DNA of 64,000 bases. Origin: Tychonema bourrellyi FEM_GT703. Its GTDB lineage: Bacteria > Cyanobacteriota > Cyanobacteriia > Cyanobacteriales > Microcoleaceae. Position numbers and translations under genes: made by a program. The notes beneath the pieces were generated by a model that was given only the letters and a program-made list of their open reading frames with translations, searched no databases and was not told where the DNA came from. The stretch's first letter is position 1, and each line of letters begins with the position of its first letter. The stretch spans positions 1 through 64,000 of the forward strand of contig NZ_NXIB02000009.1 of assembly GCF_002412335.2 (NCBI RefSeq), given 5' to 3'. Shown piece by piece: positions 1,769 to 33,012 of the stretch.

Positions 1769-1951
1769 GTGCGATCGCTTCTAGTAAAATTTAACTGTAG
1801 CTTACAGACTCAACCTTTGCCGATTGTCCGCTCTCACTTGTCAAGTCCCCAAGCATTAAGTAATCAATATGACTGCTTTAGGAGTATCAGGCGTGGTATT
1901 CTCTAAAGTAGCATCCACTTTCAGCCCAGTACCAGTGGACAAGAGGAACTT

Positions 1952-2527
1952 ATGATCGAGCTTTCTACCGAACAACTGCTTTACTTGCTGTACGCAGTAG
2001 CCTACTCAAAACAGAGTAAGGCGACTAAAGGCGATGTGAAACAGCATTTATCTAAAGGATACCAGAAGGATGCGAATGCTATCTGTGATATTTTGTGTCA
2101 GAAGCAATTGCTCGAATCTCCTAAAAAAGGTCAGCTTTTCGTGACAGAGCAAGGTAAGAAAGTTCTAGCTACTAATCTGCAAACCAGTAAGTATGAGTTT
2201 GATTCAGCAAAAGGAGCGAAACTTATAAATACTCTTTGGCGTTACTGTCAAGTCGGAGTTGCGGATTCTCAGACTTCCGATGGTGGTAAAGAGATGGACT
2301 TTGAGAAATTTGTAGAAAAGTTTAAGGCTCTTTATTTTGAAGAAAGAAAGCGTCAAGAGTTAAGGGGAGTAGTTGCTATTCGCAGCCGAGAAATTTGTCA
2401 TAAATTTTTGGAACAGAACGATATATCTCAATCAAATTTGAATAAAAACTTTGCTTTGCTTAAATCAACTGGCAAAGTTTTTGCAGTTATCGAAAAAGAA
2501 GATGAACTTATTCAGTGGGTAGAGTAA
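1952..2527 (+). CDS. Putative winged-helix protein, first gene of a two-gene cassette
   Basis: I do not recognise a named family. Residues 1-75 read as a winged helix-turn-helix: helix LSTEQLLYLLYAVAY, then a second helix (KGDVKQHL), a recognition-type helix (ANAICDILCQKQLL) and a wing-like GQLFVTEQGKKVL. The C-terminal 90 residues are charged and helical (EERKRQELRGVVAIRSREI). The gene ends 3 bases before the next ATG, so the two are almost certainly cotranscribed and probably translationally coupled. By analogy with other small wHTH plus ATPase pairs it may sense DNA or regulate the ATPase; this is inference. Codon usage is AT-rich, like its partner and unlike the nearby core genes. Confidence 0.75.
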   Translation: MIELSTEQLLYLLYAVAYSKQSKATKGDVKQHLSKGYQKDANAICDILCQKQLLESPKKGQLFVTEQGKKVLATNLQTSKYEFDSAKGAKLINTLWRYCQVGVADSQTSDGGKEMDFEKFVEKFKALYFEERKRQELRGVVAIRSREICHKFLEQNDISQSNLNKNFALLKSTGKVFAVIEKEDELIQWVE

Positions 2528-2530
2528 GCT

Positions 2531-4267
2531 ATGACAGAAGATGCAGGAAAAAAAAGGTATATAAGAGACTTCCTTCACCAAGTAAATTCAAGCGCAGGAT
2601 TTGTTGATGATATTAGAATAGATCGCGTTGTTAGGCTTCCAGGGTCAGAAGGTGAAGGATCTACAGCCAAAAGTTTGTCGGGGCGGCAAATATCTAACCT
2701 AACTGAGCTTCTTAAGGACGATCTTCGTCATACATTTGATGACGGCTACTTTACATTTAGATTCGTTGCAGCCCTAGTTGGTAGTGGTAAAACCTCTCTA
2801 TTAACTTACCTCCATGAATTAGCTAAAACTAAACCAGCCTATCAGAAGCACTCTGTAGTTGTTGAGTTCCAACTCTCTGTGTTTGATGAATTTATTGGTA
2901 AGGGTTTTAAGAAAGAATTGTACTCCCACATCCTAGCTCATACATTTTATGAGTTGTCACACAATAAAGAATTATTGGATTCAGTTAAAAATGTAGCTAG
3001 AAAAGTTTTGAGGGATTATTTATCTGACACTGAAGTTACTCAACTTAATGCCGCTCAAGATTTGATGCTATTTCGCACAAAATTCAAAAAGTCTATTGCT
3101 GATAATGTGGATAGTCTTGAAGAATTTTTCTTTTCTATAGTATCTAAAGTATCAGCCGTTGATCCCAACTTTAGTTTTGTTTACCTCATAGATGAGTTAG
3201 ATGCTTTAGTAACATCTCCCGATCAAATTAAAGAAACAAGACTTCTTTTCAAACAATTAATTAGAAGGGCAAAAGAAAAATTCGGATCGAAGATTCGCTT
3301 GTTAATATACTTAGTAGGTACATCAAATAACGTAGAAAGTTTTATTGCTGAAGATTCTGTCATGGAAAGTCTTTTAGGTGAATCAGTGATAAATCTAAAT
3401 AAGGGTTATATCAATGAATTTGAACTGATTAGAAATAAAATTGATGAGCGTATTAAAGGCGCTTATAAGGGATATAAGAATTTTTCTCAAGCATGGGAAG
3501 AAATTAAAGATATAACATTGAATCCTGTTAATACCTTGAGAGAGTTTTGTCAACACTATGCTGGGGCTGTATTAGAAATACATGAAAAATATTTTCAAGA
3601 AGCTCCAGAACAGGAATTTGAAGGCAATTCACGCCAGTTAGTAGAATCCAAGTGTAGACAACACTGGGCAAGTTACCTCAAGCAGAAATCATACACTCTA
3701 TCGGCATTTTTAACTACAAAAAAGATTAAAGGTCACGCCTTTGACTGTTACGTGGAATTACTGCACAACGGCACTTGTGTTGCTAGAGCCTTTGGCGAAG
3801 CTAAAAACTATGAACTGTTAAGCAGCCATTTAGAAAAGTTTAATCAATGGTTAGAAGCTGCCAATTTCAAACCCTTTACCCCTGATGGGACACCGGGAGA
3901 TTTATCTTTTATGATTGCTCCTTCCTGTCCACCTCTCCTGGAAAGAAAGTTGGAACTTAAAAACATTCAATTTATCAAATCTGATAAGGTTATTCCCCCG
4001 CCAATACCCACACCCACATCCACGCCTATACCCAAACCAACTCCTACAGCCACGCCATTTCCTATTAATCTCAATAAAGCCAATAAATCCGAAATAAAGA
4101 AGGCTTTCAATGGAACCTATATCAGGGAGAAAACTATCGATGAATTTATCATTGATAGAAATACTGAAATCTATTGTGACATAGACGATATGGCGTTTCT
4201 AGGTCTTACCCCAGCCGCAAAGAAAATACTTCAAACAAAGTTTGATAAAGGTGAGATTTGCTTTTAA
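2531..4267 (+). CDS. P-loop ATPase with putative REase-like and HhH C-terminal modules
   Basis: 578 aa, not assignable to a named system. Visible domains in order: a P-loop near residues 81-88 (VGSGKTS) and a Walker B at 216-223 (FVYLIDEL), giving an AAA/STAND-like ATPase over roughly 40-310; a segment near 400-445 with D405, then E423-A-K425 (GEAKNYELL), the spacing of a PD-(D/E)XK nuclease core; a proline/threonine linker at 489-511; and a C-terminal stretch at 512-570 starting INLNKANKSEIKKAF that resembles a degenerate ComEA-type helix-hairpin-helix. An ATPase joined to a nuclease-like and a DNA-binding-like module suggests nucleic-acid surveillance or defence, but this is inference. It follows the winged-helix gene by 3 bases. 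Downstream lies another PD-(D/E)XK-like gene on the opposite strand. Confidence 0.75.
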   Translation: MTEDAGKKRYIRDFLHQVNSSAGFVDDIRIDRVVRLPGSEGEGSTAKSLSGRQISNLTELLKDDLRHTFDDGYFTFRFVAALVGSGKTSLLTYLHELAKTKPAYQKHSVVVEFQLSVFDEFIGKGFKKELYSHILAHTFYELSHNKELLDSVKNVARKVLRDYLSDTEVTQLNAAQDLMLFRTKFKKSIADNVDSLEEFFFSIVSKVSAVDPNFSFVYLIDELDALVTSPDQIKETRLLFKQLIRRAKEKFGSKIRLLIYLVGTSNNVESFIAEDSVMESLLGESVINLNKGYINEFELIRNKIDERIKGAYKGYKNFSQAWEEIKDITLNPVNTLREFCQHYAGAVLEIHEKYFQEAPEQEFEGNSRQLVESKCRQHWASYLKQKSYTLSAFLTTKKIKGHAFDCYVELLHNGTCVARAFGEAKNYELLSSHLEKFNQWLEAANFKPFTPDGTPGDLSFMIAPSCPPLLERKLELKNIQFIKSDKVIPPPIPTPTSTPIPKPTPTATPFPINLNKANKSEIKKAFNGTYIREKTIDEFIIDRNTEIYCDIDDMAFLGLTPAAKKILQTKFDKGEICF

Positions 4268-4362
4268 CATAAGATGCAATGATTAGAGGATTTGGTAGTT
4301 CGTGGCGATCGGCCAACCATTGAATTTCTCCACGGGCTAACTTTTCTTTGTAATCAAATCAG

Positions 4363-4965
4363 CTAAATTTCCCGTGCCATCCATACCAAAAAGCCCAAAA
4401 TTTGATCGACAGGAGGCAGTGGATAATCAATCAAATCAATTGTTACTATTTGTCCTTCTAGTTTCAGAAATCGCCACTGAGTGCCATTGGTGACTGAACC
4501 ATAAATTATAGGAATCGGCTTTTTCTTAGCCTCATTGAATTTTTGTGCTGCCACCATCTCAGCAATACATTGTCCGAATCCTGTTCTGAGATCGGATTTT
4601 TTGGCCTCCACAATAATGACTGCCGGTGCTTCAATTTCTAGAATTTCTTCGGAACGGCTAAAAAGAAAATCGCACATTCCGTTCAATCCCATTGATTCAT
4701 CTACTGTGAAGTCTTCTCCTGAAAATAAACTGACTCGTCGCTGTAAAATTCGTCTGGCTTCTAACAATACAGGATAAATAATTCCTTCAGAACGAGCTTT
4801 TTCGCTGGCTGATGAGGCTAACGGTAGGCTTTCTTCTAAAAAGGCAGTCAGTGTTTGTGAGGGGGAAATTGGGTCAATATTAGGCAAAAAACGAACTGAT
4901 TCTACAGTGGTTAGATTAAATGCTTCCTTGACTTTACCGATCGTGGTGAAAGAACTGTATGGCAT
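4363..4965 (-). CDS. PD-(D/E)XK-like conserved cyanobacterial protein
   Basis: About 200 aa, from a family widespread in cyanobacteria but without an established function. The pattern LNGMCDFLFS (acidic D) followed about 25 residues later by VIIVEAKKSDL (E-x-K) and then a helix with GFGQCIAEMVAA is that of a PD-(D/E)XK nuclease-fold core, similar to the N-terminal part of type I restriction R subunits. The start at 4965 (MPYSSFTTIGKV) is preferred. The longer reading from 5040 runs through a repeat element and begins with non-conserved residues. Convergent with the ATPase gene upstream; whether they work together is unknown. Confidence 0.75.
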   Translation of the reverse strand: MPYSSFTTIGKVKEAFNLTTVESVRFLPNIDPISPSQTLTAFLEESLPLASSASEKARSEGIIYPVLLEARRILQRRVSLFSGEDFTVDESMGLNGMCDFLFSRSEEILEIEAPAVIIVEAKKSDLRTGFGQCIAEMVAAQKFNEAKKKPIPIIYGSVTNGTQWRFLKLEGQIVTIDLIDYPLPPVDQILGFLVWMAREI

Positions 4966-5002
4966 AGGGATTAACAGTATTAAGTTGAATTGGTAAGTGT
5001 AT

Positions 5003-5185
5003 TTAAACTGAGATCTTACACCAATGTCAGCAACGGGCAAGATGCCCGTTCCACAAAGACTCTATTTTCTTGTGGTCAGCAACGGGCAAGATGCCCGTTC
5101 CACAAAGACTCTATTTTCTTGTGGAACAGGCATCTTGCCTGTTCATAAAAGGCTAATTAAGAATTGTGCAATATCTGAGTTTAAA
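5003..5185. mobile_element. MITE-like element family B, copy 1, with 49-bp tandem duplication
   Basis: Ends are inverted repeats: TTTAAACTGAGATCTTACAC at 5003 and its imperfect complement (GTGCAATATCTGAGTTTAAA) ending at 5185. The interior carries GGGCAAGATGCCC palindromes. A 49-base unit is duplicated exactly head to tail (5027-5075 and 5076-5124), followed by the inverted half AACAGGCATCTTGCCTGTT. It ends 2 bases before the stop codon of the DUF2786 gene. Related copies lie at 11100, 37271 and 58509. Confidence 0.75.
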
Positions 5186-6141: not shown

Positions 6142-7359
6142 CTAATCATCCAGAACTTCCAGGACTGATTTGGGTAATAGTTTATCTTTAAACCAGATGA
6201 CTTTTGCTGGCACGTCTTTCACCTTCACCCCTGCTTTCTCCAAATTCAGACGTTCGGAAATAGCCAAAATCAAGTTATCGCAGTCCGACTTATGTACTTG
6301 TGCAAATTTCTTTTGCAAATACTCCGGTCGCCAATAACCAACTATCTCTAATAAAAACACTCGGCCGTCGGGATGCACTAACCGAAAGTCGGGAATCATC
6401 ACACTACCTGGAATCGGAATTAGATCAACTTCTCGTTCCAATTGCCACTCGGTTTTTGTGGAACTCCATCTTTCAGCAAATGCTGCTTCTAACATACTAT
6501 CATAAGGTTTCCCAGGTGGATAGTGGCTGACTAAGCCGCACTCGGAATTTAGGGTGAATTTACCTGTTTTTAATACGCCTGTAAAAGGGTCTTTTGTTTG
6601 GAGTGTTGAGTGCATACTCCATTTGGTGACGTGCAGCAGTGCGGGCAGCATTTTTGCTAGGGCTAAGCCGTAGCGGGTGCTGGGTTTGAATAAGCTTGTC
6701 GGCCCGTCGATGGTGAGGGTAAAACCGATTTCGGCATCGCCTTCGATGTAGGTCATTAATTGAAATAGTTTTAGATAGCGAAATAGGAGTTTGTATTCTC
6801 CTGGATCGTTACGGTGGGCGTTTAATTGCACTTGACTTGCGCGGTAAAATATGCCTTGGACTTGAGAAAGATTGTAGCGATGCAAGAGTGCTTCTGCTGT
6901 GGGTGCGTCGAATTGGGTGAAAATTTTGTTTTCGTTTAAATCTGCGTATAAACCTGTACTGATTTCGTTGGTTAAAACTTCTCGATTTAACTCTTGACTA
7001 AGTTCAAGTGCTAGTGTTTCGAGGGTTAATTGGGTGGAATGATGGCTGGGAGTCGATCGCGCAGACAAGGCAAAAACCCGCTGTCTCAAGTCTGAAGGTT
7101 CTAGGGGACTGATGACTTCAAAGGTGCTGAAACCGCCTCTCAGCAGGTGAGCAAATCCGCGTTTGACCCGGTAGTCGGGGCTGTCGCCTTCTAGTGATTG
7201 CAAGTGTTTGTCTAGTTCGCCTTGGGTTTTGCCGATCGACTCTTGAAAGCAATTTATAATTTCGGTAGCTGCTTCTAGGTTTTTAGCATCTATCTTGAGA
7301 CGTAATGGGATGATCGATTCCCCATTTTGGCGGTGACTTAGTAAATCGGTTGGTAACAT
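6142..7359 (-). CDS. DUF790 family (Bax1-like) nuclease
   Basis: The 405 aa protein matches DUF790, the family of Bax1, the archaeal endonuclease that partners the XPB helicase. The N-terminus MLPTDLL..HRQNGESIIPLRL and the DSPDYRVKRGFAHLL segment are family hallmarks. The C-terminal nuclease domain shows VMIPDFRLVHPDG followed by VFLLEIVGYWRPEYL, the D and E of a PD-(D/E)XK fold (here E-x-V rather than E-x-K, as usual in this family). DNA repair by helicase-coupled flap or bubble cleavage is the known role of Bax1. The helicase gene normally found beside it is not in this window. Confidence 0.85.
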   Translation of the reverse strand: MLPTDLLSHRQNGESIIPLRLKIDAKNLEAATEIINCFQESIGKTQGELDKHLQSLEGDSPDYRVKRGFAHLLRGGFSTFEVISPLEPSDLRQRVFALSARSTPSHHSTQLTLETLALELSQELNREVLTNEISTGLYADLNENKIFTQFDAPTAEALLHRYNLSQVQGIFYRASQVQLNAHRNDPGEYKLLFRYLKLFQLMTYIEGDAEIGFTLTIDGPTSLFKPSTRYGLALAKMLPALLHVTKWSMHSTLQTKDPFTGVLKTGKFTLNSECGLVSHYPPGKPYDSMLEAAFAERWSSTKTEWQLEREVDLIPIPGSVMIPDFRLVHPDGRVFLLEIVGYWRPEYLQKKFAQVHKSDCDNLILAISERLNLEKAGVKVKDVPAKVIWFKDKLLPKSVLEVLDD

Positions 7360-8445: not shown

Positions 8446-8520
8446 GGACTCTGTACGGGTAATTGAAATAGCTAAACGAATAAGATATAAGGGCATAATA
8501 TAATTTTGAGTGGACAGGGT

Positions 8521-9879
8521 ATGGAACTAGATTTACAGAGATTTTATAAAGTTTGCAATCCCAGCTACACCCTCGCAGTAGCAAATCCAGAAGACAGACA
8601 ATACTACATTGAATTTTCTTCAGTCAGAGGTGGCAAAATTGTCGAACAATTGGATCGCACCATCAGCCGCCTCTCGCCTGATGAGCCTACTTGTCAATTG
8701 TTCACTGGCCATATCGGCTGCGGTAAATCTACAGAGTTGCTGAGGCTGCAATCTGAATTGGAGCATCAGGGATTTCACGTGGTCTACTTTGAGTCTAGCA
8801 AAGACTTAGATATGGCTGATGTCGATATCACTGATATTTTATTGAGTGTTGCCCGCCAGGTGAGCGAAAGCATTGAGAAGATGAAAATCAAGCTGCAACC
8901 GACTGGTTTTAAAGCTTTGCTGAAAGGGGTAGCAGATGTTTTTCAAACTCAAATTGACCTGCAAGCTGAAGCTTCTTTGCCGGGTGTTGGTGGCATAAAT
9001 GCCAGTACGGATGGAGAGTTTTCTTTGGCTTTGGGAATTGGTAAAATTACTGCGAAAGCTAAGGATTCTCCGAATTTGCGATCGGAGTTAAGGCAATATT
9101 TGGAGCCACGAACTAATGTAATTTTAGATGCTCTGAATAAGGAGTTGCTTGAACCGGCTACTAAAGAACTCAAACGTCTGGGAAAACAAGGTTTGGTGGT
9201 AATTATTGATAATCTCGATCGCATACATTTGTGCACGAAGCCTACAGGACGACTTCAGCCGGAATATCTGTTTGTAGATAGGGGTGAGCAGTTGGCAAGA
9301 CTCAATTGTCACGTAGTTTATACAATTCCTTTGGTCTTAATTTTTTCTAACGATTTGGGGCAGTTGACCAATCGATTTGGGGTAGATCCCAAGGTGTTAC
9401 CAATGGTGCCGGTGCGGAACCGCGATGGTTCTGAGTGCTTCCAGGGTGTAGAATTGCTGCGGCAAATGGTTTTGGCTCGTGCTTTCCCAACGGTGGAGCC
9501 GATCGCACGCTATGATTTGATTGGCAAAATTTTTGATAATCCCGAAACTCTCGATCGCCTTTGTCGAGTTAGCGGGGGACACGTCCGCAATTTGCTACAA
9601 CTGCTCTATAGTTGCCTCCAGAGAGAAGAACCGCCACTGTCTAGGGCAACTTTGGAAAAAGTGATCGTTCAGCGTCGTCATCATCTCACGTTAGCGATAG
9701 AGCCTGATGAATGGACATTACTAAACCAAGTATCGGCAACCAAAGCTGTGAGTGGAGAAACTAAATATCAAATTTTGTTGCGTAGTCTCTGGGTGTTTGA
9801 ATACCGTTATGGTGATGATTATTGGTTTGATATCAATCCAATTTTGGCAGATGCAAAAGAGTTGATAGTTGACAGTTGA
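8521..9879 (+). CDS. P-loop ATPase of a cyanobacterial family of unknown function
   Basis: Around 450 aa. A Walker A motif (GHIGCGKSTELL) is near residue 65 and a Walker B-like strand (GLVVIIDNLDRI) near 225, followed by arginine-containing sensor-like segments (RVSGGHVRNLLQLL) that resemble the Orc/STAND type of AAA ATPase. Relatives are frequent in filamentous cyanobacteria; no function is established. I prefer the ATG at 8521 (MELDLQRFYK); a TTG at 8506 would add five residues. The last codons (ELIVDS, stop) read into the adjacent heptad repeat array, so the stop codon itself is repeat sequence and the native C-terminus may have been altered. Confidence 0.75.
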   Translation: MELDLQRFYKVCNPSYTLAVANPEDRQYYIEFSSVRGGKIVEQLDRTISRLSPDEPTCQLFTGHIGCGKSTELLRLQSELEHQGFHVVYFESSKDLDMADVDITDILLSVARQVSESIEKMKIKLQPTGFKALLKGVADVFQTQIDLQAEASLPGVGGINASTDGEFSLALGIGKITAKAKDSPNLRSELRQYLEPRTNVILDALNKELLEPATKELKRLGKQGLVVIIDNLDRIHLCTKPTGRLQPEYLFVDRGEQLARLNCHVVYTIPLVLIFSNDLGQLTNRFGVDPKVLPMVPVRNRDGSECFQGVELLRQMVLARAFPTVEPIARYDLIGKIFDNPETLDRLCRVSGGHVRNLLQLLYSCLQREEPPLSRATLEKVIVQRRHHLTLAIEPDEWTLLNQVSATKAVSGETKYQILLRSLWVFEYRYGDDYWFDINPILADAKELIVDS

Positions 9880-27914: not shown

Positions 27915-29243
27915 ATGTCTGCTAAACCTAAAATTATAGTTCTAGATGACGATCCCACAGGTTCTCAAACCGTACACAGTTGCTTGCTGCTGACACGTTG
28001 GGACGAAGAAACCTTGCGTTTGGGACTGCGGGACAAGTCGCCGATTTTCTTTATACTGACAAATACTCGATCGCTAACTCCCGAAACAGCAGCCTCCGTC
28101 ACCCGCGAAGTGTGCCAAAATCTCAAAGTTGCGATCGCAGCCGAAGCAATCGACGACTTCCTCATAGTTAGCCGTTCCGATTCTACCCTGCGCGGTCACT
28201 ATCCGATCGAAACCGACGCGATCGCCGAAGAACTCGGCCCCTTCGACGGTCATTTTCTAATTCCCGCCTTTTTTGAAGGAGGAAGAATTACCCGCGACAG
28301 CGTGCATTACCTGATGGTTAACAGCGTCGAAACACCAGTTCACCAAACCGAATTTGCCAAAGATTCAGTCTTCGGCTACAGTCACAGTTACCTGCCAGAC
28401 TATGTAGCAGAAAAAACCAAAGGTCGCATCCAGGCCGAGCAAGTCGATCGCATCTTACTCGCAGACATTCGCCACGGAAATTTAGAGCGACTAATGGACA
28501 TGACAGACAACCAATGTGCAGTAGTAGATTGCGAAAATCAAAGCGATTTAGACACCTTTGCCAAACACATTCTCGATGCAGCTAGTCAAGGGAAAAAGTT
28601 TTTATTCCGCAGTGGAGCAAGTATCTTAACATCCTTAGCTGACCTCGGCCCCCAGCCAATTGCAGCCGACGAAATGGCAAAATATGTGAGGGATGGCAAG
28701 CCCGGTGCAGTAATAGTTGGTTCCCACGTCAAGAAAACTACAGAACAATTGGAATACTTGTTAAAAGAAGCCCAGACAGTTAGCATTGAAATAGACGTAT
28801 CTCACTTGCTAGAAGATTCACCAGAATATCGGACAGACCTGTTGAATAAAACTCTAGAAAAAGTCCGCAGTGCTCACAGCGATGACAAAACCCCAGTAAT
28901 TTATACCAGTCGCCAAGAACTACAATTTAAAAATACCGAAATCCGGTTAAAATTTGGAGAAGCTGTTTCTGGTTTATTGATGGATATAGTGCGGGGACTG
29001 CCCGGAGATATCGGGTTTTTAATTAGCAAAGGCGGCATCACTTCCAACGATGTTTTGAGTACAGGTTTATCCCTCAAAAGTGTTAGACTGCTAGGTCAAA
29101 TTATCGCAGGTTGTTCAGTAGTAAAAACCGAGGCAGATCATCCTCTATTTCCCAACTTACCAGTGGTTTTGTTTCCCGGAAATGTGGGAGATAGTAATGC
29201 TTTGGCAACGGCTTACAAGCGGCTGAGCAAGCAGTCTAGCTAG
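27915..29243 (+). CDS. Four-carbon acid sugar kinase family protein (DUF1537)
   Basis: 442 aa, the length of OtnK/DUF1537 kinases that phosphorylate 3-hydroxy four-carbon acid sugars such as threonate derivatives. The N-terminal domain shows VLDDDPTGSQTVHS, VSRSDSTLRGHY and LIPAFFEGGRITRDS, all family hallmarks. The C-terminal nucleotide-binding domain shows VIVGSHVKKTT, FLISKGGITSNDVLS and VVLFPGNVGDSNALA. No aldolase or dehydrogenase of an acid-sugar pathway is next to it, so its substrate in this organism is open. Confidence 0.92.
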   Translation: MSAKPKIIVLDDDPTGSQTVHSCLLLTRWDEETLRLGLRDKSPIFFILTNTRSLTPETAASVTREVCQNLKVAIAAEAIDDFLIVSRSDSTLRGHYPIETDAIAEELGPFDGHFLIPAFFEGGRITRDSVHYLMVNSVETPVHQTEFAKDSVFGYSHSYLPDYVAEKTKGRIQAEQVDRILLADIRHGNLERLMDMTDNQCAVVDCENQSDLDTFAKHILDAASQGKKFLFRSGASILTSLADLGPQPIAADEMAKYVRDGKPGAVIVGSHVKKTTEQLEYLLKEAQTVSIEIDVSHLLEDSPEYRTDLLNKTLEKVRSAHSDDKTPVIYTSRQELQFKNTEIRLKFGEAVSGLLMDIVRGLPGDIGFLISKGGITSNDVLSTGLSLKSVRLLGQIIAGCSVVKTEADHPLFPNLPVVLFPGNVGDSNALATAYKRLSKQSS

Positions 29244-29278
29244 TTGAATTTCAGATTAGCCCAGATGAATTGAGTTCT

Positions 29279-29385
29279 AAGCTGTTCGGCATTTAAACTC
29301 CTGGCTGTCGGTGCGTAGGGGCGAATGGTCATTCGCCCGTACAAGGTTTTCCGTTTCAGCGTAAGGGTTCTAGCTGACGCACCCT
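29279..29385. mobile_element. Foldback element family C, copy 2 (right end incomplete)
   Basis: Starts with AAGCTGTTCGGCATTTAAAC, the left end shared with 35108 and 38790. Then come GGTGCGTAGGGGCGAATGG.., CCGTTTCAGCGTAAGGGTTC and GCTGACGCACCCTAC. The matching right end is missing; another element begins at once. Confidence 0.7.
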
Positions 29386-29386
29386 A

Positions 29387-29518
29387 CTATAGAAATCCTA
29401 AATCAGTTGTGTAATTTTTGTAGGGGCTCGCTTGCCCCGTGGTTGCCCCGCTTATGCTGGGGTAGGCACGGGGGCACTACCCCTACAAATCCTCATGAAT
29501 GATTTAGGATTGCTATAG
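29387..29518. mobile_element. MITE-like element family D, copy 1
   Basis: Inverted ends: CTATAGAAATCCTAAATCA and TGATTTAGGATTGCTATAG. The interior pairs TTTGTAGGGGCTCGCTTGCC with GGGGCACTACCCCTACAAA. About 132 bp without coding capacity. A second copy is at 41993-42100. Confidence 0.8.
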
Positions 29519-29530
29519 CCTCGTTACTAC

Positions 29531-30427
29531 TCAGCCATAAATAGGCATACGCTTGGCAAAAAACACAGTGACTATCACTGCAAGTCCAAATATCAAGGTC
29601 ATGGCGTCTAATGACTCACCTAATAACGGTACAGAGAAAATAATCGATAAAAACGGCTGAATAAGTTGCAATTGACTAACACGAACTACATCACCCATCG
29701 CTAAGGCGCGATACCACACAAACATACCTAGCCACATTGAGAGGAGAGAAACATAGAAAAATCCCCCCCAGGAAGGCAAAGGAATAGGGGCAGTTGGCCA
29801 GGCAATAAGTGTAACGGGTATAGTAATTGGTAGTAATAAGATAAGCATCCAGCAGATCACAATTTCGCCTGGCCAACGTTGTGACAGGCGAGCACCAACC
29901 GCATAACCAAAGGCGGCACATAACACTGCTAATAAAAGTAAAAAATCTGCCCAATGTACACTAACGCCCGCTACGCTCACACCTGCGCCCCGTAGCCAAG
30001 CAAATGCTACAACGAGCACTGTCCCTGCAATAGAAAACAGCCAAAAACCTGCCGATGGCTTACGGCGAAAGATTAAAGCACCCATGATGGCTGTCGCTAG
30101 TGGGAGAATGCCAGTTATCACAGAGGCATGTGTAGACTCAACATAGCGTAAGCCCAAAGCTAAAAAAATTGGCCATCCCAATACATTACCTGTCGCAGCT
30201 AAAGTTAGTGGTAAGTAATCCTCGCGCTTAGGTCGAGGAGCTTGCACAGCCACTAAATAAATAATCGAAAGCAAACCAGCCAAGGCAGCCCGCCCAAAAC
30301 TCACAAACCAAGGGGATAAGGCTGGTTCTATTGCCGATCCAGTTGCTAACCGTGTCATGGGCAAAGTCAAGGCAAATATCAAGACACCTAATGAACCCAA
30401 CAAAAAGCTTTTGTTTTCAGTTGACAT
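29531..30427 (-). CDS. DMT-superfamily transporter (EamA family)
   Basis: 298 aa with ten hydrophobic helices in two EamA halves (first about 5-140, second about 155-295). Typical sites: ALTLPMTRLATG in helix 1, GRAALAGLLSI and LRYVESTHASVITGILPLATAI at the first repeat's end, YRALAMGDVVRVSQLQLIQPFLSIIF in the second. It exports or imports a small metabolite across the cytoplasmic membrane; the substrate is not deducible. It runs opposite to its neighbours and ends next to the family D repeat. Confidence 0.92.
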   Translation of the reverse strand: MSTENKSFLLGSLGVLIFALTLPMTRLATGSAIEPALSPWFVSFGRAALAGLLSIIYLVAVQAPRPKREDYLPLTLAATGNVLGWPIFLALGLRYVESTHASVITGILPLATAIMGALIFRRKPSAGFWLFSIAGTVLVVAFAWLRGAGVSVAGVSVHWADFLLLLAVLCAAFGYAVGARLSQRWPGEIVICWMLILLLPITIPVTLIAWPTAPIPLPSWGGFFYVSLLSMWLGMFVWYRALAMGDVVRVSQLQLIQPFLSIIFSVPLLGESLDAMTLIFGLAVIVTVFFAKRMPIYG

Positions 30428-30712
30428 GATTTTAATGTTACCCTCTTACTAGGTAAGGCAGTTGGTGTTCATTTATCCAATTATCTTGACACCGTAGAAA
30501 CGTAAGAGCAATCTATCTGTTCCATCAGATCTTGGGAAGAAAATGTCACGGGGATGTAGGTTTTGCAAATCCATGCCGAGTGCAAAGAATACCTTTACTA
30601 TCAGGTACTAGCAAAGGTGCTAGACGGTGCTTCACAGCACCTCAACCAAAAGAGGGCGGTTTATAAACATCAAAAATAGTTGACACTCCCTGTGCTGAAG
30701 CAACAGGGATTC

Positions 30713-31475
30713 TTAAGACCACAATTTGAGTCTCAAAGGTGCTGACAATTCGCCTCTACCGATTCCACTTAGATCGAGTCCAAGCATCACCGCTACTTTT
30801 CTACCAATATTTCCACAGCCGTTACAATCTGCATTAATTAACCAACCTTGAGCCGTTCGATACAAACCACGCTTAATTCGTTTGCCACTGGGAAGCCACC
30901 CTTCAGGTTTTTCGCCGAACGTAGGTAGCAAATCATGATCAACAAACGAAGCCTTAGAAGAATAAGATTCTTCGGTTTCTACAAACTTTAATCCATACTG
31001 CTCACAAAGTTGAGTAATTCTATCCTTCAGTCTGCCAGTAGGAATTTGTACAAACTTTTGATGAGTTTTGCTACCCATGTTGGCAGAATTTTTTTGTCCC
31101 TTATTCCAACCAAATACAACCGTTCCTATGCAATTTTTCAAACAGTGGTCAATTACCTTCCTTGCAGCTTTGTTGACGGCATCTCGCATCTGGCGGTTAC
31201 GTCTTTCGGTCAAATTGGCAAGTCTTTTAGACCAGAATCCGTTAGATTTGCCTTCCATCAAAAATGCAACCCGCTTGTTATACCCCTGGTTGAGCGATTT
31301 TAAATGCTTACCGTCAATGATAAAACTTGTGCCAGCATTGCTTACGCAAGTCAGCCAGTTATCTACGCCGTGGTCAATCATTAAGCACTTGGCGGGGTCT
31401 ACAAGAGCACAGATACTCAAGAATGGCTTGAGTATCTGAACCAGCTCGAATTAGATTTTGTTGGCAACCAAACAT
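30713..31475 (-). pseudogene. tnpB: tnpB with internal deletion and frameshift
   Basis: The N-terminus survives at 31475 in one frame (MFGCQQNLIRAGSDTQAILE, behind the strong AGGAGGA ribosome-binding site), matching the start of TnpB of this group. The C-terminal ~222 residues continue in another frame from about 31380: RuvC-like CLMIDHGVDNWLTC with the first Asp, VVFGWNKGQK, ETEESYSSKASFVDHD and INADCNGCGNIGRK with the last Asp. Full-length relatives are about 380-400 aa, so about 150 residues of the N-terminal half are missing. An RNA-guided nuclease in intact form; this copy cannot be active. Confidence 0.85.
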
Positions 31476-31520
31476 GACTTATCCTCCTATAATATAGTAC
31501 AGCAAAAAGCCGGATAAATC

Positions 31521-31661
31521 ATGAAGAAACGTTTAGATTTTCGGATCGAGGGATTTGAGTTTGAGATTCTTGAGCAATACTGCAAGGACGTGGGTAGAAC
31601 CAAGACCGATGTACTTAGAGAATTAATTAGGACATTGAAAGAGAAGAAAAAGCCGTCGTAG
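31521..31661 (+). CDS. Small RHH-like protein divergent from tnpB
   Basis: 46 aa: MKKRLDFRIEGFEFEILEQY, then CKDVGRTKTDVLRELIRTLK, then EKKKPSS. The order beta strand, helix, helix (RTKTDVLRELIRTL) is a CopG/Arc-like ribbon-helix-helix. It begins 46 bases from the tnpB start and is divergent, so it may regulate the tnpB promoter. Small genes of this kind beside IS1341-type tnpB occur in cyanobacteria as far as I recall; the protein has no proven role. Confidence 0.6.
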   Translation: MKKRLDFRIEGFEFEILEQYCKDVGRTKTDVLRELIRTLKEKKKPS

Positions 31662-31860
31662 AACGACGGGGCTTCAGACCCCGTTTTTTGGTGATTTATC
31701 AAATTTACGAAAAAAAATTCAGGCAGAACTCTACATATAGGGCCAACAGCGCCACAGATACTGCTATCAGTAGCGTTTCCAGCTTGTATCAGCCTAAATT
31801 TAAAAATTAAGTGCAAATTTTCACATAGTAATTTTTAGCTGAAAGGATTAGCATATAAGG

Positions 31861-33012
31861 GTGACAGAACATTATCATCCACTAAACTCATTAAAAGGTG
31901 GCCATTGGTTCAAGCTGATCTGTGGGGCTAGCTTTCAACACCTGCCTGCGGTGCGGAACCTGACCTTGGCTTACACCTTAGCAGGCGCTGACTGTATTGA
32001 TGTCGCGGCAGATCCAGCCGCGATCGCAGCAGCACAAGAAGCCCTACAGGTTGCCAGCGAAATACAGGCTCAAACCCAAAACCCCAGGTTTGGTGGCAAA
32101 GGTTTGCCCTGGTTGATGGTCAGTTTAAATGACGGAGAAGACCCGCATTTTCGTAAAGCCGAATTCAACCCAGTCGAGTGTCCGGCGGACTGCTGGCGGC
32201 CATGCGAAAAAATTTGTCCAGCCGAAGCAATCATTTTTCAGGGTGCTGGCGAGGGTGTTTCCGGGGTGATAGACGAGCGCTGCTATGGTTGCGGTCGCTG
32301 TCTACCGGTTTGTCCCAGCCAACTAATCTACACTCGTTCTTACGTGTCTGCTCCCGCCGCGATCGCACCTTTAATCTTGCCCTACGGTGTGGACGCCCTA
32401 GAAATCCACACGCAAGTAGGCAGAGAAACAGATTTTGCAAGACTTTGGTCAAGCATAAATCCCTGGGTGCATCAACTCAAGTTAATAGCCATTAGTTGCC
32501 CCGATGGAGACGGTTTGATTGATTATTTACGGACACTCTATCAAATAATTTCTCCCCTTCCTTGTCCCCTAATTTGGCAAACCGACGGTAGGCCGATGAG
32601 TGGAGATATTGGCATCGGAGCGACTAGAGCCGCAGTCAAACTCGGTCAAAAAGTCTTGGCGGCCGGCTTACCCGGATACGTGCAACTTGCCGGTGGCACT
32701 AATGCTTATACTGTCAGCAAACTCAGGGCATCTGGACTGATGAAGGAGCATGGGAAAAATTTGTCAATTCCTGATACTCCACATATTGCAGGTATAGCTT
32801 ATGGCAGCTATGCTCGCTTTCTGCTGTCCCCAATTTTAGAGCAATTAGAAACAATGCAAATCGATCGAGCCTTGGCGATTCCAAACGCGATCGCGCCACC
32901 AGCAGCCGGAGCCCACATACCAGGACTGACTCAGCTCGAAGCCTTCCCAGAACTGCTCTGGCAAGCCGTGAGTTTAGCTCATTCTCTAGTTTCCCCACTC
33001 AAAGAATATTAG
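31861..33012 (+). CDS. ldpA: LdpA family circadian/redox iron-sulfur protein
   Basis: 383 aa. LdpA in Synechococcus is an Fe-S protein that reports redox state to the circadian clock and sets light-dependent period length. The Cys pattern of a 2[4Fe-4S] ferredoxin is clear: [14 protein letters not shown] then [13 protein letters not shown]. Around it lie conserved LdpA blocks ([50 protein letters not shown]). The GTG start at 31861 gives the normal N-terminus. The downstream neighbour is an R3H/AAA ATPase gene on the same strand, separated by a long repeat array. Confidence 0.92.

Follow-up and report, generated by a model that had tools for sequence, protein, structure and literature searches.

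The Avs proteins carry an ATPase and a nuclease fused in one chain. In McrBC and in the CoCoNuTs, an NTP-driven subunit is coupled to a PD-(D/E)xK nuclease (PMC11090510), and BrxC, which binds DNA, combines an AAA+ domain with winged-helix (wHTH) domains (PMC13326643).

In this work, we analyzed a two-gene cassette located in the window, i.e., the whole stretch of 64,000 nucleotides studied here, corresponding to positions 1-64,000 (forward strand) of contig NZ_NXIB02000009.1 of Tychonema bourrellyi FEM_GT703. The original prediction had described a 191-aa wHTH protein (P1) and a 578-aa protein (P2) encoded 3 bases apart at 1952-4267, for which nucleic-acid surveillance was suggested as a role; the coordinates, protein lengths and gap were all correct. 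We consider it fairly likely that the pair constitutes a compact restriction-like defence module that depends on ATP, is horizontally mobile and unites ATPase and nuclease in one chain; judging from its context, its putative function is probably to guard the cell against foreign DNA. The pair comprises the following features:

1952..2527, + strand: P1, 191-aa winged-helix-type protein, first gene of the pair (ORF)
2363..2524, + strand: P1 C-terminal conserved segment, residues 138-191 (conserved in 13 homologues)
2531..4267, + strand: P2, 578-aa ATPase / nuclease-like / HhH protein, second gene (ORF; 12 full-length homologues aligned)
2696..3586, + strand: P2 ATPase region, residues 56-352 (sub-threshold AAA_22 and BrxC_BrxD; match to the N-half of the type B ATPase, see below)
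2777..2797, + strand: Walker A VGSGKTS, residues 83-89 (GSGKT invariant in 12 homologues)
3176..3199, + strand: Walker B FVYLIDEL, residues 216-223 (F216, Y218, L219, D221 and E222 invariant in 12 homologues)
3620..3994, + strand: nuclease-like segment, residues 364-488, with D405, E423 and K425 (D405 and GEAKNY invariant in 13 sequences)
3995..4057, + strand: Pro/Thr-rich linker, residues 489-509 (no invariant position; variable in length among homologues)
4058..4264, + strand: ComEA-like HhH, residues 510-578 (HHH_3 sub-threshold in 6/12; profile best E=4e-6)

Conservation and distribution of the gene pair

Homologues of the pair were searched in relatives and in a phylum-wide draw of 386 genomes, several of the genomes being draft assemblies. 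The two genes form an operon: P1 lies directly upstream of P2 in 13/13 readable loci of filamentous cyanobacteria, the window included, always with a spacer of exactly 3 nt between the P1 stop and the P2 start (GCT in the window); a fourteenth locus (G250), in which the junction is cut by the contig end, was left out of this count. The conserved pairing that the original prediction had counted in its favour is present, and the refuting case it had named, i.e., that the two genes never co-occur elsewhere, clearly fails. Pairwise dN/dS values of ~0.22-0.41 for P1 and 0.37-0.66 for P2 indicate that both genes are under purifying selection.

Within the 386-genome draw, 17 genomes displayed any P2 match at E<=0.001, and 8 of these were counted as carrying P2 homologues, namely six full-length proteins (the window included), G201, which aligned in two pieces sharing one frame, and the truncated G250. 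The remaining matches were weak and partial, mostly involving the Pro/Thr and HhH part of P2. The presence of the pair is patchy, and it is missing from most congeners with near-complete genomes. The search beyond cyanobacteria took in viral contigs, phage records and plasmids, none of which yielded a P2 homologue, and one pattern scan of genome contigs. Furthermore, a keyword search of the open-access literature retrieved no description of the P1-P2 pair, which may have been described under other names.

Domain architecture of P2

In line with the original prediction, which knew of no named system with this order, the comparison of both proteins with Pfam, PADLOC, NCBIfam and PHROGs gave nothing describing P1 or P2 above curated cut-off or noise; no model of PADLOC-DB 2.0.0 matched the pair, the only hit being a chance-level Cas3 (E=0.016). 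Below threshold, P2 homologues matched AAA_22 (9/12), HHH_3 (6/12) and BrxC_BrxD (4/12), and also NACHT. The motifs reported for P2 (VGSGKTS, FVYLIDEL, D405, E423, K425, the Pro/Thr stretch and the HhH-like C-terminus) were all found at their places, and the invariance of GSGKT, D405 and GEAKNY across the full-length homologues sets them above chance. The alignment of these 12 members, whose identity to the window protein goes down to 43%, contains 110 invariant positions out of 578. The ATPase accounts for 52/297 and segment 364-488 for 35/125, the largest share of any annotated domain, while the HhH has 6/69 and the linker 0/21. The longest invariant run is GEAKNY (422-427), exceeding the P-loop run GSGKT (84-88). 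An ATPase assignment agrees with the invariant P-loop and Walker B core, and the ComEA-like character of the C-terminus is borne out by its profile, which retrieves the ComEA-like HhH tails of unrelated ~550-aa proteins (E down to 4e-6), read by eye as PLD-like. When compared with the PDB, the HhH profile gave annexins (E 0.015), which were taken as helical-repeat noise.

P1 is homologous to the first protein of a three-gene operon

In P1, the predicted wHTH character is in line with a sub-threshold signal of Mrr_N (PF14338) in 10/13 homologues (best E=0.0014). Its C-terminal conserved segment is, as read by eye, possibly a second winged helix. The P1 profile also retrieves a protein of 214-280 aa, which is the first gene of an operon encoding a wHTH protein, an AAA ATPase and a DUF1802/Mrr_cat nuclease; here we coined the name type B for this operon, the pair of the window being type A. 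The P1 and type B wHTH profiles proved homologous by hhalign (E=8e-12, against 0.1 for the reversed control), and the N-halves of the P2 and type B ATPases matched at E=2e-4 (reversed 0.2), which may be generic P-loop similarity. Together, these matches point to an adaptor, and possibly an ATPase, common to both.

The type B gene order is identical in 28/28 sampled loci, with an ATPase of 607-817 aa where unbroken; three of these loci (L080, L086 and L256) have it divided between two ORFs, possibly through sequence error or decay. The type B nuclease occurs in 40/244 cyanobacterial genomes, the window's own included (G000:C229). The operon matched no PADLOC system, and keyword searches of the open-access literature found no published description of it and no mention of Sll1717; DUF1802 appeared in a single paper, on soil microbial networks. 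The genome of the window has all three type B genes, as a complete operon, on another contig (G000:C229:13200-17361; L255:4201-8362). At a separate locus, a type B operon is immediately preceded by a further, diverged gene for a type B ATPase (L052:5551-7386; G056:C58).

Like the pair, type B is patchy and starts with a homologous wHTH, followed by a P-loop ATPase and ending with a D..ExK protein; unlike the pair, it has three genes instead of two, a separate DUF1802 nuclease and no HhH seen. DUF1802 and Mrr_cat were found in neither P1 nor P2, and the separate nuclease gene of type B has no counterpart in the pair. We give an even chance to there being an undescribed immune family of cyanobacteria, built on a common wHTH adaptor, of which the pair is the compact version; its two architectures would be one of three genes (wHTH, ATPase and Mrr nuclease) and another of a wHTH plus an ATPase-nuclease-HhH fusion.

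The nuclease-like segment of P2

The D..ExK trait of the PD-(D/E)XK superfamily is present in 13/13 sequences (D405, E423 and K425), and the stretch past K425 (a helix, DLxFxIAPSC and LELKNIxFI) resembles by eye the extended core of these enzymes. Profiles of segment 364-488 gave no match against the PDB and Pfam, and Mrr_cat (PF04471) gave no hit, either with the whole of P2 (E<=1) or with the segment (E<=10). Comparison by hhalign with 27 cyanobacterial Mrr_cat sequences was not significant (E=0.42), and neither were those with the type B Mrr nuclease, the dsRBD and decoys; 60 column-shuffle controls displayed a wide spread with outliers, and therefore reversed profiles were used as later hhalign controls. 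Since the type B nuclease does match Mrr_cat (E=4e-10), the Mrr_cat profile comparison could have worked, and the P2 segment is regarded as either very diverged from the type B nuclease or independent of it. Two AlphaFold models from four-sequence alignments were of too low quality to judge the fold, reaching a pLDDT of 50.1 for the whole of P2 and 48.4 for residues 358-490, and the latter low-confidence model gave no Foldseek match at E<=0.001. On the basis of the invariant residues, we propose for segment 364-488 a putative PD-(D/E)XK-type nuclease fold.

The main rival to the defence-module reading is that P2 is a DNA/RNA-binding ATPase in which this segment is not a nuclease (e.g., a dsRBD-like or other alpha-beta-beta-beta-alpha domain) and which acts in sequestration, translocation or transcription control. 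We regard this as unlikely: the segment has no profile match to any nuclease, the alpha-beta-beta-beta-alpha order of the low-confidence model would suit a dsRBD too, and the Foldseek matches, none of them significant, include dsRBD chains, but D405, E423, K425 and the whole GEAKNY run are invariant in 13 sequences, and in type B a homologous adaptor stands beside a true nuclease. The specific identity of a dsRBD was considered and is not supported, as the comparison with cyanobacterial dsRBDs aligned only 6 columns and the conserved segment extends past a dsRBD.

Mobility, insertion sites and neighbours

The pair is contained in a DNA unit with the following limits:

1771..4351, no strand: mobile unit, outer limits, with 103 bp instead in two congeners (empty-site comparison with G026 and G027)
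1868..4311, no strand: core of the unit, common to loci at another chromosomal site (DNA homology to G028, G020 and G003)

In the two empty-site congeners, the flanking Uma2 gene and PD-(D/E)xK gene are 103 bp apart, this DNA replacing positions 1771-4351 of the window, and homology to the three genomes of the other site begins at 1771-1868 and stops at 4311-4313; the module is gained and lost as one unit. The same slot holds HicA/HicB, a NB-ARC ATPase and a protein read as TPR in G024, and a HicB in G004. In three other congeners the module directly follows a gene read as DAHP synthase, after which further congeners carry other ORFs, including by eye Uma2-like and C5-methyltransferase-like ones. 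No inverted repeats were found at the unit ends. The unit is AT-rich, its GC content being 36.6% where the window as a whole has 44.1%; roughly 0.6% of equally long stretches are as low. The CGATCG core is missing from the unit, against 6.4 occurrences expected at the window's mean density, partly because of its low GC, and the resulting CGATCG-free gap of 2534 bp is the second longest in the window, the longest being 3576 bp (28445-32021); the core is likewise missing from 9/10 type A cassettes checked, including the window, several of them being close relatives. These features fit horizontal acquisition of the unit, short of proof. The CGATCG (HIP1) cores at 1772 and 4306 lie almost exactly at the unit ends, which may be chance or a recombination trace.

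At the variable sites that the module occupies, congeners carry toxin-antitoxin, NB-ARC and apparent DNA-methyltransferase genes. G304 has the pair together with a phosphatase, an N6/N4 methyltransferase and a type B operon inside 10 kb, and in G201 a C5 methyltransferase adjoins the pair. Several other loci lie amid housekeeping genes, with no recognised defence neighbours. No neighbours are conserved across genera.

The slot shared with HicAB in congeners, and the tight coupling of a small first gene with a large second one in 13/13 loci, would also suit a toxin-antitoxin-like or abortive-infection unit, in which released P2 would harm host DNA and P1 would restrain or repress it. We consider this rather improbable, as the P1 homologue heads a three-gene ATPase-nuclease operon, which is closer to an effector complex, and a simple toxin would not usually come with an ATPase coupled to it. 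Less probable still is a housekeeping DNA-repair or competence factor, suggested by the ComEA-like HhH and by a recG downstream at one locus, given that the pair is absent from most near-complete congeners, lacks cross-genus neighbours and is low in GC. Tn7/TniB-like elements contain P-loop ATPases and nuclease-type domains, and the unit does occur at different sites, but its being a remnant or part of such an element is equally remote and was rejected, with no recognisable transposase gene, no terminal inverted repeats, and an empty site that shows a 103-bp replacement without target duplication.

Other genes were observed around the pair. In the window, 4363-5040 (- strand) encodes a PD-(D/E)xK protein (PADLOC Cas-associated PD_DExK, E=6e-51) whose many paralogues gave 12 matches within the genome of the window and as many as 28 in a single congener; 6142-7359 (- strand) encodes a DUF790 protein (E=3e-154) also matched, below cut-offs, by Bax1 endonuclease models; and 8506-9879 (+ strand), 4 kb from the pair, encodes a KAP/ATPase_2-like P-loop protein of 457 aa that weakly matches PADLOC PDC-S20 (E=4e-6). 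In G128, the 22.9-kb contig with the pair (L046:1641-3563; G128:C53) also codes for a protein matching the ResT/TelK telomere resolvase domain (E=5e-27), a sign that would point to a linear replicon.

Discussion

With the integration of these findings, a defence module could operate as follows. The winged-helix protein P1 would be a DNA-binding or adaptor subunit that recognises or recruits DNA, and the P2 ATPase would assemble or switch with nucleotide, while the HhH tail, on its flexible linker, would hold DNA non-specifically. Foreign or aberrant DNA would thus be recognised via P1/P2, followed by ATP-dependent assembly and by cleavage in cis by the predicted PD-(D/E)XK-type nuclease (D405, E423 and K425). 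Observed here are the operon, the invariant motifs, the HhH similarity, the homology of P1 to the type B wHTH and the gain or loss as one unit; we infer DNA as the target, the nuclease activity, the participation of P1 in the same complex and, from context, the role in defence. In favour of this reading are also the patchy presence, the HicAB and NB-ARC genes in the same slot, the methyltransferases near the pair in G304 and G201 and the low GC of the unit. Against it stand the absence of any profile or structural match to a nuclease fold in segment 364-488, the lack of a PADLOC match, the loci amid housekeeping genes and the lack of homologues in phages, viral contigs and plasmids. If this is true, an uncatalogued restriction-like system would be added to cyanobacteria, and the pair would be tied to a three-gene operon without PADLOC match whose nuclease is present in about 1/6 of the sampled cyanobacterial genomes. 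Furthermore, the empty-site and swapped-site comparisons constitute natural knock-outs, and the common adaptor makes the question of sensing tractable.

Regarding the known systems, the STAND/Avs fusions resemble P2 in having an ATPase and a nuclease-like domain in one chain, but P2 displays no STAND model or repeat sensor above cut-off and its nuclease-like segment is C-terminal. The likeness to McrBC and the CoCoNuTs is one of working principle, i.e., an NTP-driven subunit with a nuclease; McrBC consists of an AAA_5-clade GTPase and a separate McrC with DUF2357, neither of which was detected in P1 or P2. The ATPase region of P2 matches BREX BrxC weakly (BrxC_BrxD, E=0.006 for P2 and 3e-4 for the best homologue), with 16 bits against a cut-off of 22.2; P2 is about half as long, the nuclease-like and HhH segments belong to P2, and no BREX genes (PglX/PglZ) were recognised in the flanks examined. 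Finally, the Mrr type IV restriction enzyme (PF14338 and PF04471) has in common with the pair the weak Mrr_N-like signal of P1 and the E-x-K motif of P2, whose segment 364-488 also appears by eye to have its elements in the Mrr order; in contrast to Mrr, the pair splits these parts over two proteins and adds an ATPase, and Mrr_cat was not detected in P2.
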